This document shows, one piece after another, positions 3,854 through 28,767 of a stretch of 41,069 nt of DNA (positions are counted from its first letter, which is position 1; each line of letters opens with the position of its first letter). The notes beneath the pieces are model-generated. The model saw only the letters and a list, made by a program, of their open reading frames with translations, made no database searches and was not told where the DNA came from. Both the position numbers and the translations under genes were made by a program. Source of the stretch: Nitrososphaerales archaeon (lineage in GTDB: Archaea; Thermoproteota; Nitrososphaeria; Nitrososphaerales; JACAEJ01); the NCBI GenBank assembly GCA_013388925.1, contig JACAEJ010000054.1, forward strand, positions 1 to 41,069, in the 5' to 3' direction.

Positions 3854-4759
3854 GTGCCTATAGTAGTATCGGCAGAAAGTTTGACGAAAAGGTATGGAGA
3901 CCTGCTAGCAGTTGATGGCATAAGTTTTGACGTAGAACAGGGTGAATGCTTTGGCTTTTTGGGACCCAATGGCGCTGGAAAGACTACCACGATAAAGATG
4001 ATCCAATGCTTCTCCCAGAAGACTTCTGGTAAACTCGAAGTTTTTGGAATGGATGTAGGTTTTCACCCAAAGGAGATCAAAAGAATCTTGGGCGTAGTGC
4101 CCCAGGAAAACAACCTTGATCCGACTTTACAGTTTACGAGAACCTCATGGTCTACTCTCGATACTTCAACATTCCGAAGGAAGAGGCAAGGGAAAGGATT
4201 GAAAGGCTTATAAAATTCGTCCAGTTGGAAGACAAGAAGGACACTATCATCGAGAAACTCTGGAGGGATGAAGAGAAGATTAATCCTTGCTAGGGCCCTT
4301 ATTAACGACCCAAGGGTACTGATTTTGGACGAACCCACGATAGGTCTAGATCCTCAGGCAAAGCATCTTATCTGGGACAAACTGAGGAGCCTGAAGAGGG
4401 AAGGGGTTACTATAATACTTACTACTCACTATATGGAGGAGGCATCACAGCTTTGTGATAGGCTGGTAATAATGGACTTCGGCAGGATTCTGGTCGAAGG
4501 AAACCCTGATGATCTAGTGAAAGAGCAGATTGGAACCAGCATCATTGAGGCCAGGGCAGACCCGGAGTTTCTTTCCTGTCTACAAAAGATGAAGCTAGAG
4601 TTTGAGGTCGTCGGGGATACTATTCATGTTTTTACCGACAGGCCTTCAGATTTGATGTTTTCCCTCTTGAACCAGTGCAGACTCGGTCAGACCACCGTAA
4701 GGTCTGCGACTCTCGAAGACGTATTTCTTAAGTTGACAGGGAGGGTTCTCAAAGAGTGA
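3854..4759 (+). pseudogene. ABC transporter ATP-binding protein, frame broken twice (or sequencing errors)
   Basis: This encodes the ATPase of an ABC-2/drug-exporter type transporter (DrrA/CcmA-like). The first part reads from GTG 3854 to about 4129, with Walker A GPNGAGKTTT and Q-loop VVPQEN. A missing base near 4127-4130 (PTL should continue TVYENLMVYSRYFNIPKEEA) shifts the frame and leads to a stop at 4211-4213. The homologous protein continues in another frame from 4132 to 4260, and two more bases are missing at 4261, exactly in the Ser codon of the LSGG signature. From 4262 on the original frame resumes, with GGMKRRLILARAL, Walker B VLILDEPTIGLDP and H-loop TTHYMEEA, ending at 4759. The separately readable parts are 3854-4213 and 4268-4759. 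The two deletions sum to 3 nt. The gene is either inactive or a short read-error zone. The permease start overlaps its stop codon. Confidence 0.85.
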
Positions 4760-23141: not shown

Positions 23142-24083
23142 ATGAGAAATCCATTCTTTGATCGAGATATTATCTCGATAAAGGATTTTTCCCGATCTGA
23201 ACTTGAGTATCTATTCTCCTTGTCTAACCGTATGGATTCTCTTGACCGTGAGAAAAGAAGGAATTTGGGAAGAGGCAAAATTCTTGGGCTACTGTTCTTC
23301 GAGCCCAGCACGAGAACTAGGCTGAGCTTCGAGGCTGCAATGTTATCCATTGGAGGCAATGTCTTGGGCTTTGCCCATCCTAGAATGTCTTCTGTGGAGA
23401 AGGGGGAGAACCTCGCTGATACCGTTAAAACCGTAGAGAACTACGTTGATGTGATGGTCCTTAGGCATCCTATGGAAGGTGCGAATCGTTTCGCAGCGGA
23501 AGTAGCATCAAAGCCCATAATAAATGCTGGTAGCGGGACAGAGGAGCACCCTACCCAAGCCATGCTCGACCTCTACACCATCATGAAGGTGAAGGGAAGG
23601 ATAGATGGATTGAACATAGCCATAGTGGGGGATTTGAAGTATGGAAGGACGGTGTACTCCCTCATCTATGGTTTGTCAAACTATAGAACGAGGATATTCT
23701 TGGTATCCCCTCCACAGCTAAGAGTTAGAGAAGAGGCTCTGTTCAACATTGGGGATAAGATCAAAGTATCAGAGCATGGAGACATTAGGGAGATAATAGA
23801 GGATTTGGATGTTATATACGCCACTAGAATTCAAAGAGAGAGATTCCCTGATCCTCATGAATATGAAAAGGTCAAGGGCTCTTATGTGATAGACATCGAT
23901 CTGCTCAAAAGCGGCAAGGATGATTGTATAGTCATGCACCCCCTCCCTAGAGTGGGGGAGATAAAGCCAGAAGTCGATAACACTCCAAGAGCAAAGTACT
24001 TTCTACAGATATACCTTGGCAAGGTGATAAGGGCTACCCTGTTGGCTTCTATCCTTAACCCTAATCCTTACGCTCTATTCTGA
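23142..24083 (+). CDS. pyrB: Aspartate carbamoyltransferase catalytic subunit PyrB
   Basis: A 313-residue ATCase catalytic chain that makes N-carbamoyl-aspartate from carbamoyl phosphate and aspartate, the committed step of pyrimidine synthesis. Visible motifs are the carbamoyl-phosphate loop FFEPSTRTRLSFEAA (about 53-67), SVEKGENLADT (the 80s loop with catalytic Ser/Lys), VLRHPMEGA, GSGTEEHPTQAMLDLYT (with the active-site His), VGDLKYGRTVYSL, YATRIQRERF (240s loop) and MHPLPRVGEI. Length is normal. It is convergent with nrdJ, and only one base separates their stop codons. The separate pyrI gene is divergent upstream. Confidence 0.98.
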   Translation: MRNPFFDRDIISIKDFSRSELEYLFSLSNRMDSLDREKRRNLGRGKILGLLFFEPSTRTRLSFEAAMLSIGGNVLGFAHPRMSSVEKGENLADTVKTVENYVDVMVLRHPMEGANRFAAEVASKPIINAGSGTEEHPTQAMLDLYTIMKVKGRIDGLNIAIVGDLKYGRTVYSLIYGLSNYRTRIFLVSPPQLRVREEALFNIGDKIKVSEHGDIREIIEDLDVIYATRIQRERFPDPHEYEKVKGSYVIDIDLLKSGKDDCIVMHPLPRVGEIKPEVDNTPRAKYFLQIYLGKVIRATLLASILNPNPYALF

Positions 24084-24084
24084 A

Positions 24085-26298
24085 TTATTCACATTGAGAG
24101 AAGTTGCACGATATACACCTTAGGCAACCTTCAACGAATATTACCTGACCTCCACAGGCAGGGCATGCACCGAGGCCGTTGAACTTATCAATGGATTTTT
24201 GATGATCCTTTTTGTCGAACATCTCCTCTATCGATTTTGCTACAGCATCTATGCATGAAAGTACTCTGTTTTGACCGATTCCTTCCTGTTTATGGCAACT
24301 TATTCCCATGAGCTCACTCTCCACTTCCCTTAGGGTTGCACCATACTTTAGAGCCAGAGAGCAAGCCCTGGCTAACCCCTCTGTGAAGGCGGCGGCGCAC
24401 CCCCCGGCCTTGCCCAGAGTTATGAAGATTTCAAAAGGCTCATTCATCCCATTATTGAAGACCTTTGTGTAAATATTACCACACCCAGTTCTCTTCCTTA
24501 GACGCACCCCGTAAGCTTTTTCTGGCGTTTCCTTTTTGGCAATCATTTTGGCTCTTGCTTCCATCTTTGTCTTCTCGGTCTCCAGGACTTGTCCCTCCCT
24601 ACTGGCATCCCTATAAACAGTAACACCCTTGCATCCCAAATCGTAGGCCAATATGTAGACCTTTTTTATATCATCAACCGTTGCGCTGTTTGGGAAGTTC
24701 ACGGTCTTTGACACAGCGTTGTCGGTGTATCTTTGAAAGGTCGCCTGCATCCTTATGTGCCACTCAGGAGATATATCATAAGCCGTAACGAAGACCTTCT
24801 TTACATGCTCGGATATCTCTTTGATATCCTTAAGCGATCCATTCGTAGCAATCTCCTTTATCAAATCCTCGCTGTAGAAGCCCTCCTCCTTGGCGGTCCT
24901 CTCGAATAGCTGGTTTATTTCGATAAGCCTCTGGCCTTCAAGGACGTTGCGAGTGTAGCATACTGCATAAAGGGGCTCTATACCGCTGGAGCAACCCGCG
25001 ATCATAGATATGGTCCCGGTCGGGGCTATAGTGGTCAAAGAAGCATTTCTTAACTTCGTTCCTCCTAAAGCATCATATACGCTCCCATTGTAGTTTGGGA
25101 AGCACCCCCTCACTTCTGCAAGCTCGGAAGAAGTTCTTCTTGCTTCGTCTCGAATGGTCTTCATAACCCTCTCTGCAATTCCAACAGCTTCTTCAGAATT
25201 GTAGGGTATGCCAAGTTTTATGAGCATATCTGCAAAGCCCATGACCCCCAGACCTATCTTCCTATTCGCCTTAGTCATTCTCTCTATCTGAGGCAATGGG
25301 TACTTGTTCACGTCTATTACATTGTCAAGGAAATGGACGGCCGTTCTGACCGTTCTTATCAACTTGTCATAATTCACCATCCCATCTTCGACCATCGAGG
25401 ATAGGTTTATGGAGCCCAGATTACATGATTCAAAAGGCAACAAAGGTTGCTCGCCGCAAGGATTTGTGCTTTCTATCATCCCCATGTGAGGCGTGGGGTT
25501 GAATTCGTTTATCCTGTCTAAGAATATTACTCCGGGCTCACCATTCTTCCATGCCATGCTCACTATCAACTCAAATGCCTCTCTGGCCGACAACCTTTTT
25601 ACAACCTCTTTCGTGCGGGGATTTGTCAAATCATAGTTTTCGTTCCTTTCTACAGCCTTCATGAACTTGTCCGTTAGAGCCACTGAGATGTTAAAGTTGT
25701 TGAAGGCATCGCTTTCCTCCTTTGCCTTTATGAACTCGAGTATATCTGGGTGATCTACCTTCAATATGCCCATGTTGGCACCTCTCCTCCTGCCCCCTTG
25801 CTTTATTACTTCGGTCGCAATATCGAATACCTTCATGAAAGAGACAGGGCCCGAGGCTATGCCACCCGTTGACCTCACTGCATCATTCTTTGGTCTTACG
25901 TTAGAAAAGGAAAAGCCAGTACCGCCACCAGACTTATGGATCAAAGCGGTGGCCTTGACGGCGTCGAATATGCTATCTATAGAGTCATCGACTGGAAGTA
26001 CAAAACATGCGGATAGCTGGCCCAGTTCTGTTCCAGCGTTCATCAGGGTTGGGGAATTTGGCAAGAACTCCAGATCTATCATCATCCTGTAGAACTCTTC
26101 CTCGGTCTTTTTAACATCGACACATGGATCGTATAAGGCATCTGCCTCCGCTATGGCCCTAGCCACTCTACGGAACATCTGATCTGGAGTCTCTACTAAA
26201 TTACCTTCTTCATCCTTCTTCAGATACCTCTTTTCCAATACCTTCAAAGCGTTAGCAGAGAGGCATCTTGTAACTTCTTTTTCTGCAGTAAGAACCAT
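24085..26298 (-). CDS. nrdJ: Adenosylcobalamin-dependent ribonucleotide reductase (class II)
   Basis: A 737-residue class II reductase that makes deoxyribonucleotides using adenosylcobalamin to generate its radical. The catalytic core carries FLPNSPTLMNAGTELGQLSACFVLPV (first redox Cys near residue 97), SGGGTGFSFSNVRPK, the NPCGEQPLLPFESCNLGS signature (about 277-294, with the N-x-C-x-E catalytic triad), and LTTIAPTGTISMIAGCSSGIEP. The C-terminus has a zinc-ribbon-like end, CPACGG ... CLRCISC, which includes the Cys used for re-reduction. There is no intein and no N-terminal ATP cone. The dependence on B12 matches the BtuFCD-like importer at 38320-41069. A 226-bp spacer upstream holds repeated motifs. 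Confidence 0.96.
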   Translation of the reverse strand: MVLTAEKEVTRCLSANALKVLEKRYLKKDEEGNLVETPDQMFRRVARAIAEADALYDPCVDVKKTEEEFYRMMIDLEFLPNSPTLMNAGTELGQLSACFVLPVDDSIDSIFDAVKATALIHKSGGGTGFSFSNVRPKNDAVRSTGGIASGPVSFMKVFDIATEVIKQGGRRRGANMGILKVDHPDILEFIKAKEESDAFNNFNISVALTDKFMKAVERNENYDLTNPRTKEVVKRLSAREAFELIVSMAWKNGEPGVIFLDRINEFNPTPHMGMIESTNPCGEQPLLPFESCNLGSINLSSMVEDGMVNYDKLIRTVRTAVHFLDNVIDVNKYPLPQIERMTKANRKIGLGVMGFADMLIKLGIPYNSEEAVGIAERVMKTIRDEARRTSSELAEVRGCFPNYNGSVYDALGGTKLRNASLTTIAPTGTISMIAGCSSGIEPLYAVCYTRNVLEGQRLIEINQLFERTAKEEGFYSEDLIKEIATNGSLKDIKEISEHVKKVFVTAYDISPEWHIRMQATFQRYTDNAVSKTVNFPNSATVDDIKKVYILAYDLGCKGVTVYRDASREGQVLETEKTKMEARAKMIAKKETPEKAYGVRLRKRTGCGNIYTKVFNNGMNEPFEIFITLGKAGGCAAAFTEGLARACSLALKYGATLREVESELMGISCHKQEGIGQNRVLSCIDAVAKSIEEMFDKKDHQKSIDKFNGLGACPACGGQVIFVEGCLRCISCNFSQCE

Positions 26299-26524
26299 TT
26301 TATATTACACTTGTAAGTTGATGGTATTGACCTTGCCAAGATTTAAAGGTTTAACAAAAAAATATCGACCAAATCTTGCCTCTAATCCTTTTCTTGCCCT
26401 ACATATACCCTTCATGGAAAGATTTGGTAAAATTAAATTGACTTGGATGCTCCCTCTCATTTTGGGTTTAACTCAGATATGATTTGTAACACAATAACCA
26501 TCAAAAACTAGTTAAAAAGAGCAT
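26299..26524 (-). promoter_or_regulatory. Long nrdJ upstream region
   Basis: This 226-bp spacer between the NrdD-like gene and nrdJ holds no gene. An AT-rich CTTTAAATCTT (about 26336-26346, minus strand) is the likely TATA box of nrdJ, and three copies of an AAGATTT core occur within it (near 26338, and the inverted pair described separately). It is much longer than most same-strand spacers in this window, which suits a regulated promoter. Confidence 0.45.
26368..26428. repeat. 10-bp inverted repeat in the nrdJ promoter region
   Basis: ACCAAATCTT (26368-26377) and AAGATTTGGT (26419-26428) are perfect inverted copies with 41 bp between them, about five helical turns centre to centre. A partial third copy (CCAAGATTTAAAGG) lies near 26336. 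Spaced operator pairs of this kind suit a dimeric or looping regulator; the NrdD-like HTH protein next door is a candidate, by inference only. Confidence 0.5.
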
Positions 26525-28615
26525 TTATGCTGTAAAGTAATAAGTTAGAGCTATGGAATTGCAGACTTTGCATCTGTCGACCTCCATCGCGAACTTGGCC
26601 CCGCACTTCTTGCATATCGTTATCTTTTTGTTAATCTTAAAAAAGTCGAGCTTACCATCAACCTCAAAAATCGTCCTTTCAATAACGTCCACACCACTCT
26701 TTGATGGGATATCTATAATGGTAGAAAAGCCACCTCTTAGGCTCTTGGACAGGTAGTTCAATTCATCAATAAAATTTTCATTGGTAAGATCAGCATCTTG
26801 AATAAATGGGATCTGAGAGTAAGTGTTCTTTCCACCCTTCGTAACTACAATAGATTTTCCATACCTCTCGATGTCAAGAGCATAGAAACGCTCTGAGCTA
26901 TCGCTCTTTAACATAGACAACCCCATCTCCCCTCCAACCTTTCTAGCCTCCTCGCCCATAAACTTCAAGGCAGTCTCTATCACTTTTTCCATCAAGGCTC
27001 TCTTGTCCAATTGCGTAGCCTTCTCACCGATCAAGTTCGAGATTGATTCATTCAATCCTACGAGGTTTATAATGGCTGGCATATGGTCCAGAGATATGAC
27101 GCTTGGATTCTGAGCCAATATTGGTAAGAGACCCTTATCTATCGCCTCTCCAACGATCTCCCTTCTTTTTGCTAGGGCACTTATGGATAGTTGAAGGAGC
27201 ATGGCCAACTTCGCTCTAAAATATGTCTCGTCTTTGTTGGACTCATAAGAAAGCCTTGGTAGATTCAAAGATAGAGCGTTAATGGTGCCGAAGTTGTTGA
27301 TCTGGCGATCTGTGGCCAGGGCACCCTTCATTCCCTCATAGGATCGAATCACATCTTGCTGGGTCGATATCGAGACGCACCCTCCCAAATTCAGGATAGA
27401 CGCTATATGCTTTACTAGTCTCTCATCAGAGCCTTTGTCCAAAAGGGCAACCATTTTTATTTGTGGTATTGAGATACTATTGGCGTAGTCTTTGTAGCCA
27501 TCTAGAGTAGCCATCATGATCTTATTTCTTAATTCCTCGCTCAAACCAGAGGCATACGAGTCGATATGGATTGTTACCTTGGGTTCGTTGTATGGGTTGA
27601 TCAATGTAGAGGATATGGACAAAAGAGCCCTTAGAATGGCATTCTTGAGCTCTTTATGATTCTTCCTTTTTGCATATTTTCCTAAGTACGTTGGAAAGTT
27701 ATAATAGACAATTTCGGATGCCACCTCTAGGCTGAGAGAAGAGGTCAGGATCGTCAATTCGTTCATAGCCTCTTCTAGACTATTGGGAGGCCCTAACTTT
27801 TGCATCAAAGACAGTCTACCCAAGTTTATGCTGTTATTGTTCAGCGATGAGAGATCCATAAAGAGAGCATCGGGCATCAGGCCCCAGCAACCCATGCTGG
27901 ATAGATGGATATCTCCAGATAGATGAGCATCGGACACATCACGAGGAAGCTGGGCAAGAAGTAAATACTCTGAAAAGACTGATTTTGCAGTATGCCCCAA
28001 GACCACATCCAACCCTTCCCTAACCTTGCCAGCTTTGTTCATCAATTCTGTTACATCGAAGACAGGCATGCCCAATCGGGTCAATTTGTGCCTATACTCC
28101 TCGTAACCGTGCTCTATGAGCAAGGCATTCACCATTTCTCTTATTAGAGGGGCTGTGAGGTAAGCAGTCTGGAATTTGGAGATCCTCCCTTCTACCTCGC
28201 TGGTTACCCTCTGGGCTAGCTCTACTGGCATCCCAGCTTCTTTGATAAGAGATTGGAGAATCTTGTTTGGGTTGAACTCCTCTATAGTCTGTCTCGATGT
28301 CCTCACATAGAACTTGCCACTCTCCAGCATGGACTGCTCCTCTATCTGTCTTGTGAGATTTAGCACCAATCTGCCTAGGCTTGAAATGGAGTACTTCCTC
28401 TCACCCCTATTCAGAGAGACAAGGGCCTGCTTCACAAGCTTGCGAAGATGGTAGGCAAACTTTCCCGACTCCTTCTTAGATTTGAAGCCAGCTAGGGTCT
28501 TTAGCTCGGAGTAGCTCAGAGACCCTTTGGCATTGAGGATTCTTAGAACCTCTAGTCTATTGGGGGAGGCAATAGCAGAGTATATGCTCTTTACCCTTCT
28601 TGACGCATGCTCCAT
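26525..28615 (-). CDS. HTH / ATP-cone / NrdD-like protein, apparently non-catalytic; putative nucleotide-sensing regulator
   Basis: A 696-residue protein with an unusual domain order. Residues 1-85 are an ArsR-like winged helix (SPNRLEVLRILNAKGSLSYSEL, then FAYHLRKLVKQALVSL). Residues about 104-195 are an ATP cone (FYVRTSRQTIEEFNPNKI ... HKLTRLGMPVFDV), the dATP/ATP-sensing domain of ribonucleotide reductases. Residues about 205-640 are like anaerobic reductase NrdD (AHLSGDIHLSS, PTYLGKYA, NNFGTINALSLNLPRL). Residues 667-690 are a zinc ribbon (C668, C671, C682, C685). The chain ends 11 residues later with no RVxGY-type glycyl-radical motif. In NrdD a Cys is expected in the P-x-C-x-x-x-D-L segment after GDIH; here it reads PDALFMDL. 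No NrdG activase is seen nearby. It lies directly upstream of nrdJ on the same strand. Confidence 0.8.
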   Translation of the reverse strand: MEHASRRVKSIYSAIASPNRLEVLRILNAKGSLSYSELKTLAGFKSKKESGKFAYHLRKLVKQALVSLNRGERKYSISSLGRLVLNLTRQIEEQSMLESGKFYVRTSRQTIEEFNPNKILQSLIKEAGMPVELAQRVTSEVEGRISKFQTAYLTAPLIREMVNALLIEHGYEEYRHKLTRLGMPVFDVTELMNKAGKVREGLDVVLGHTAKSVFSEYLLLAQLPRDVSDAHLSGDIHLSSMGCWGLMPDALFMDLSSLNNNSINLGRLSLMQKLGPPNSLEEAMNELTILTSSLSLEVASEIVYYNFPTYLGKYAKRKNHKELKNAILRALLSISSTLINPYNEPKVTIHIDSYASGLSEELRNKIMMATLDGYKDYANSISIPQIKMVALLDKGSDERLVKHIASILNLGGCVSISTQQDVIRSYEGMKGALATDRQINNFGTINALSLNLPRLSYESNKDETYFRAKLAMLLQLSISALAKRREIVGEAIDKGLLPILAQNPSVISLDHMPAIINLVGLNESISNLIGEKATQLDKRALMEKVIETALKFMGEEARKVGGEMGLSMLKSDSSERFYALDIERYGKSIVVTKGGKNTYSQIPFIQDADLTNENFIDELNYLSKSLRGGFSTIIDIPSKSGVDVIERTIFEVDGKLDFFKINKKITICKKCGAKFAMEVDRCKVCNSIALTYYFTA

Positions 28616-28767
28616 GTTTAAGAGACTATTTCTAAGAAAGTATTTTAGTGTTATGAATGGTTTCTGAATGTTGTCACTTGGATGAACAAGCCATCATAAT
28701 GTGGGCTCTTTATAACGTTGTTTAGAAAGCTAGGAATTTCAAAAGTTTTTGAAGCAATCTAAGAAAG

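Follow-up and report, generated by a model that had tools for sequence, protein, structure and literature searches.

The gene at positions 26525-28615 of the window (the whole stretch of DNA that was analysed, 41,069 nucleotides from a Nitrososphaerales archaeon) encodes, at a probability of about 0.72, a transcription factor dedicated to ribonucleotide reductase: a protein that would bind a palindrome, sense nucleotides and repress nrdJ. Its architecture, its apparent inactivity as a reductase, its linkage to reductase genes and a palindrome common to two promoter regions can all be read from the DNA sequence. Judged on the same basis, the protein is derived from NrdD, yet it is not an NrdD. 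The gene and the regions of its product are:

26525-28615, minus strand: candidate regulator gene, 696 aa from an ATG start, comprising a winged helix, an ATP cone, an NrdD-like barrel and a zinc site
28325-28615, minus strand (aa 1-97): winged helix-turn-helix (ArsR-like; Pfam DUF7347)
28061-28324, minus strand (aa 98-185): ATP cone
26636-28060, minus strand (aa 186-660): NrdD-like barrel without the catalytic Cys, the radical-Cys pair and the NxN flap
26546-26635, minus strand (aa 661-690): four-Cys zinc site without an ensuing radical loop

The original prediction had described a winged helix, an ATP cone, an NrdD-like region and a four-Cys ribbon, and all of these were recovered. In Pfam, the N-terminus matches the DUF7347 winged helix (PF24038; aa 10-85, E 5e-9, 36.6 bits against a cut-off of 27.6), and in relatives this domain is matched by HTH_5/HTH_20. 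The ATP-cone model (PF03477) is matched above its cut-off by aa 103-174 (E 3e-9) and the NRDD model (PF13597) with an E-value of 2.5e-32, the best stretch being aa 438-687. The score against the NCBIfam NrdD equivalog is 98.7 bits, with a cut-off of 326, and the protein is therefore no NrdD equivalog. An AlphaFold2 model was built from 42 family members (mean pLDDT 87.6, pTM 0.78). Its winged helix consists of the helices 2-15, 18-30, 35-42 and 47-62 and the wing strands 66-69 and 74-77. When the model was compared to the PDB with Foldseek, the top matches were all class III ribonucleotide reductases (S. thermophilus, E 1e-21; T. maritima, P. copri and T4). The C-terminal zinc site (C668, C671, C682 and C685, invariant in 42 members) is the counterpart of the zinc site in the glycyl-radical domain of NrdD. 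The cone resembles that of the active archaeal NrdD at locus L107 (VRTSR...DDF); the loop of KRDG type reads RTSR in the 696-aa protein, and the active L107 enzyme has the identical loop. The fold of the cone is retained, but with the loop altered the binding of ATP/dATP is plausible, not certain.

The catalytic residues were compared in an alignment of 40 family members with four intact NrdDs taken from the same loci. The first catalytic Cys, on the first barrel strand, is found in none of the 40 members and in 4/4 of the true NrdD controls. The radical-Cys pair at the tip of the finger loop is likewise absent from all 40, with a lone Cys at the second column in one of them, whereas the four controls all have the pair. 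The NxN substrate flap has no counterpart in any member and is intact in every control. A glycyl-radical loop (RVxGY), kept in 4/4 controls, is missing from 20/20 Nitrososphaeria members and eroded in the 20 others (e.g. YSRTASGYLPL, or LGRASALLQPTDMW as against WSRITGYYQAVSGW). The catalytically dead NrdD body that had been proposed for the single protein is, by sequence, a property of the family, with catalytic residues missing in 40/40, and an intact radical tail occurs in no family member. Two readings of the 696-aa chain itself were confirmed: it ends 11 residues past the last ribbon Cys without an RVxGY-type motif, and the segment that follows GDIH (...GLMPDALFMDL) contains no Cys. The short C-terminus is no assembly accident, since 20/20 aligned Nitrososphaeria homologues stop about 5-15 residues past the ribbon and the four zinc-site Cys are the only conserved Cys columns among 42 members. 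NrdG was found above its curated cut-off in 0/41 genomes, although this cut-off is insensitive (it was passed by 3/10 control genomes with matches).

An active enzyme was rejected on account of the missing catalytic residues, and even an unusual radical enzyme that uses other residues is strongly disfavoured and barely credible. Ala or Ser does stand at the radical position in several members outside Nitrososphaeria, and in other glycyl-radical enzymes Ala, Ser or Thr can carry the radical instead of Gly (PMC11528403). Moreover, the NrdD of T. maritima is active without the pre-positioned Cys (PMC4493059). That enzyme still needs its Cys pair, however, which is missing in the candidate regulator, and the Nitrososphaeria members have neither the loop, nor the NxN flap, nor any conserved Cys beyond the zinc site.

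In a tree calculated without the winged helix, 32 members group together in one clade (99/99) that excludes seven true NrdDs. This clade adjoins the archaeal NrdD with a cone. The tree points clearly to a single origin of the candidate regulator family. Genome searches covered the window's phylum, Thermoproteota. The family is matched in 38/41 relatives, in 282/300 sampled Nitrososphaeria genomes (66/69 genera) and in 314/398 genomes of the phylum, the last number being an upper bound because true reductases probably account for the weakest phylum matches (E 1e-4 to 1e-10). Strong matches are present in more than 100 genomes from other classes of the phylum, and the family is mostly single copy per genome. 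The candidate regulator family is old. A relative on a Methanomethylovorans plasmid was rejected: what matches is an ordinary NrdD, with an unrelated protein of 668 aa encoded upstream of it.

Shrunken members are found in other orders of Nitrososphaeria (L139-L144). They measure about 584-656 aa and give short NRDD matches only, and no reductase gene was seen alongside. It seems that these proteins are losing the reductase body but retaining the winged helix, the cone and the zinc site.

Within Nitrososphaeria, pairwise identity amounts to 0.91 in the recognition region (aa 35-62), 0.77 in the winged helix, 0.71 in the cone and 0.28-0.47 in the barrel. The N-terminus, which had been thought to be of a DNA-binding type, is thus the most conserved part of the protein in this class. 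An exception in the barrel is the segment around NLPRLxYESNKDETYF, which is 79% identical within Nitrososphaeria; the conserved core of the barrel is aa 446-470 (ALSLNLPRLSYESNKDETYFRAKLA). In the phylum-wide comparison (A2) the cone is the best-conserved part, with 0.62 against 0.48 for the winged helix, and the cone positions R105, F114, I119, E126, R159, N163, R180, G182 and P184 are invariant in 42 members. A decaying enzyme would not show such a pattern, which instead suits a putative DNA-binding sensor. The regulator might also bind DNA and sense no nucleotide via its cone. Cone and barrel would then be a dimerisation scaffold, and the signal would be zinc or redox, B12 or none. The poorly conserved barrel, the altered nucleotide loop of the cone and the further shrinkage of the body, to open frames of 596-656 aa in the other orders of the class, would suit such a scaffold. 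The conservation of the cone across the phylum speaks against it, however, and the nine invariant positions exceed what a scaffold needs, which leaves this explanation unlikely.

The position beside a reductase gene was also predicted to be meaningful, and it proved to be fixed. The neighbouring features in the window are:

24085-26298, minus strand: nrdJ, class II (B12-dependent) ribonucleotide reductase, the presumed target; 737 aa, Ribonuc_red_lgC E 4e-147
26341-26347, minus strand: likely TATA box of nrdJ, TTTAAAT, judged by eye
23142-24083, plus strand: pyrB (aspartate carbamoyltransferase), convergent with nrdJ and within the conserved gene order; its regulation is not claimed

In 37 of the 38 carrying Nitrososphaerales genomes (17 families), nrdJ directly follows the candidate regulator on the same strand; in the 38th (G006) both genes are at contig ends. 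Three genomes (G012, G032 and G037) contain neither the candidate regulator nor a linked nrdJ, and in three genomes from another order (L135-L137) the two genes are arranged tail-to-tail. At the 20 loci from other classes, the candidate regulator is found upstream of a catalytically intact nrdD in four cases (L100, L107, L109 and L118) and upstream of nrdJ in one (L111), while in 15/20 genomes no reductase adjoins it; most of these have it beside pyrB. In the window and in many relatives, pyrB follows the reductase in convergent orientation. The simplest history would be an ancestral order regulator - reductase - pyrB, in which the reductase was later swapped for another class or lost from the locus. 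The link of the candidate regulator to reductase is well supported. A search for a B12 riboswitch ahead of nrdJ gave no Rfam match within the window.

Constant adjacency would suit a protein complex equally well. As a pseudoenzyme subunit or chaperone of NrdJ/NrdD, the protein would act on the reductase and not on DNA, its winged helix serving for protein contacts. In the window's family the linked NrdJ (737 aa) has no ATP cone of its own, so that an external sensor could provide one. In most other families, however, the linked NrdJ has its own cone and the gene is still kept. The partner may moreover be class II or class III, with little common surface, and both the nearly invariant recognition helix and the palindrome common to the two promoters argue for DNA as the target. 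Action on the reductase protein is accordingly very improbable.

The palindrome is represented in the window by two elements, neither of which is assigned to a strand:

26426-26443: AGTCAATTTAATTTTACC, a predicted operator located 145 nt ahead of the nrdJ start
28632-28649: degenerate copy of the palindrome in the candidate regulator's own promoter, ACTAAAATACTTTCTTAG, at about -34

The palindrome tGTcAAAnnnnTTTgACa occurs between the candidate regulator and nrdJ and, independently, upstream of the candidate regulator gene, in both cases far above controls. EM on 33 regulator-nrdJ intergenic regions yielded an 18-nt palindrome, gGTcAAAtataTTTgACc, with a log-likelihood of 84 against 31.7 +/- 2.6 (maximum 36.5) for 24 dinucleotide shuffles; the significance tests on the palindrome are based on shuffles, in which relatedness is not fully removed. 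With each family left out in turn, the nrdJ-side palindrome reached a Fisher p of 1e-7 over 13 families. In eight families the locus-wide best position falls in the regulator-nrdJ intergenic stretch in at least one genome each. A matrix trained on the nrdJ side only predicts the copies upstream of the candidate regulator (17 families, Fisher p 2e-10). When EM was run de novo on the sequences upstream of the candidate regulator alone, it returned tGTcAAAaATtTTTgACa, which correlates at 0.79 with the first matrix, and the top restarts all agree.

The element at 26426-26443 is the best palindrome match in the 41-kb window, with 13.9 bits against 11.5 for the next, scored with a matrix that included this sequence. 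With its own family left out it scores 8.2 bits (p 0.18) and is not significant alone. Among sister genera, no other conserved block of the intergenic region is as long. The copy at 28632-28649 is weak in the window's family, and other families have clear copies at the same position. No palindrome was found before nrdJ in Nitrososphaeraceae or Nitrosocosmicus, several of which have a copy upstream of the candidate regulator. The original prediction had pointed to paired inverted repeats at 26368-26428 instead. These do exist (26368-26380 and 26416-26428; 13-nt arms, 92% complementary, 35 nt apart), but a regulatory role did not hold up: the arms are unconserved in sister genera, where the conserved block is the palindrome at 26426-26443, and the repeat pair was rejected as operator.

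In 26 loci, at a threshold of at least 9.5 bits, 46% of the candidate-regulator promoters score, against 5% of 119 other genes. The top three scorers among those other genes are on loci where they lie near the candidate regulator. Conceivably, a different factor binds the palindrome, or the element belongs to promoters in general, and the protein has some other regulatory target. The palindrome is A+T-rich and in some promoters overlaps a TATA-like stretch (about -34), as would be expected under this explanation. The rarity of scoring sites at other genes of the same loci and the flanking GT...AC half-sites, which are conserved beyond a TATA box, nevertheless make it quite unlikely.

The linked nrdJ had been called the only reductase in the window. 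This holds within the window; the genome, however, has a second nrdJ on contig C82 (G000:C82:1-1557), which is unlinked. Second unlinked copies are also present at G004:C156, G001:C19, G003:C38 and G026:C57. They are ~66% identical and have their own N-terminal ATP cone, and the palindrome is absent from nearly all of them (the exception, L133, scores 11.0 bits). With a cone-less linked copy in the window's family and a cone-bearing second copy mostly without palindrome, the two look differently controlled. In families f17 (G022; L154:6303-9482) and f14 (G019; L155) the linked nrdJ is of exceptional length, with 1081 and 1046 aa, and divergent, possibly owing to inserts or an intein. In G001 (L023; G001:C20:17264-20707) the linked nrdJ is broken between residues 170 and 119 by ~1.1 kb within a single 1149-aa open frame, and this points to an in-frame insertion, for example an intein. 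Elsewhere in the window, an ABC transporter ATP-binding gene (3854-4759) is apparently split into the ORFs 3854-4213 and 4268-4759, owing to a frameshift of the gene itself or to faulty assembly.

For the candidate regulator we infer palindrome binding, nucleotide sensing, and repression rather than activation; it would then probably be a dATP/ATP-switched repressor. An archaeal class III NrdD with an ATP cone would have gained an ArsR-like winged helix and then lost its catalytic residues. The dead NrdD would have been kept as a regulator beside the reductase gene in use in the respective lineage, be it nrdD or nrdJ. As a dimer, the regulator would bind the palindrome of the nrdJ promoter region through its winged helices and, in most families, also the palindrome in its own promoter. 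The dATP/ATP balance would be read by the ATP cone, and perhaps also by pockets of the barrel that once held effector or substrate. High dATP would pair the cones and favour DNA binding, and both nrdJ and the regulator would be repressed.

In the class III reductase of S. thermophilus, dATP pairs two cones and ATP separates them (PMC12662201). As the winged helices are located directly in front of (N-terminal to) the cones, dATP would join two winged helices on the palindrome. From this architecture one would expect high dATP to cause repression, as it does with NrdR (PMC9110341). The NrdD of P. copri, however, behaves differently from the S. thermophilus enzyme (PMC11226230), and the sign of the control could thus be reversed. 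Self-repression is suggested by the palindromes at about -34 of the regulator start, where they overlap a TATA-like stretch. On the nrdJ side, the distance from palindrome to start codon is 60-330 nt; these sites are harder to interpret, and simple TATA occlusion does not suit every one of them. A more far-reaching proposal, to which we give even odds, is that the whole dead reductase is a dNTP-sensing transcription factor and a counterpart of NrdR, old and Thermoproteota-wide, which stayed at the locus through the class III/II swap and in which the dATP-paired cones carry winged helices.

Bacterial NrdR, composed of a zinc ribbon and an ATP cone, represses ribonucleotide reductase genes at high dATP. 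The candidate regulator may work like NrdR, but it is not NrdR: the 696-aa protein does not match the NrdR model (TIGR00244). As in NrdR, an ATP cone is joined to a DNA-binding domain, a zinc site is present, the gene lies beside reductase genes and self-regulation is apparent. However, NrdR binds DNA via its N-terminal zinc ribbon, whereas the candidate regulator has an N-terminal winged helix and its zinc site is C-terminal. It also carries a whole dead reductase barrel, has no homology to NrdR outside the cone, and its predicted operator is the palindrome instead of NrdR boxes. No NrdR was found over the cut-off in the window's genome or in any Nitrososphaerales genome examined, and NrdR is reported to be rare in archaea (PMC9110341). 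A curated NrdR match is present in 35/398 genomes of the phylum, nearly all of them in family f25. In the three f25 genomes that were checked (G546:C123, G543:C1 and G433:C6), NrdR is immediately upstream of an unlinked nrdD, the position that the candidate regulator holds elsewhere, while the candidate regulator itself stays at the pyrB locus without a reductase. The nrdR-nrdD pair of f25 is possibly an imported cassette that displaced the original system. Of the proposal that the protein does the job of NrdR in archaea, the parallel role is supported, with NrdR absent from the order; the mechanism is the conjectural part.

The candidate regulator shares with NrdD the cone, the barrel and the C-terminal zinc site in identical order, and its best structural matches are all NrdD. 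It differs in the added winged helix and in the missing catalytic Cys, NxN flap and glycyl-radical loop. With ArsR-like and DUF7347 regulators it shares the N-terminal winged helix (DUF7347 above the cut-off), and the conserved palindrome is located at the right places for a winged-helix operator, its binding being a prediction. Those regulators, in contrast, are small or have other sensor domains, and to our knowledge none carries a reductase body. Transcription factors derived from enzymes, such as BirA and PutA, use a metabolic enzyme body to read their own pathway and control their own genes. BirA and PutA remain active enzymes, however, while the candidate regulator appears to be dead and its enzyme type is a reductase. 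It would be a reductase-specific ATP-cone transcription factor, of an architecture for which no published description was found in a literature search whose coverage left out subscription papers and preprints.

How dNTP supply is matched to replication in archaea without NrdR is a matter of which no description was found in the literature. For the order to which the ammonia oxidisers belong, the family is a concrete and nearly universal candidate, and it comes with a DNA site and a structural switch, both predicted. If the proposed role is true, an essential enzyme would have been wholly reused as the regulator of its own replacement, and intermediate stages of this conversion, the eroded radical loops, would still be visible.
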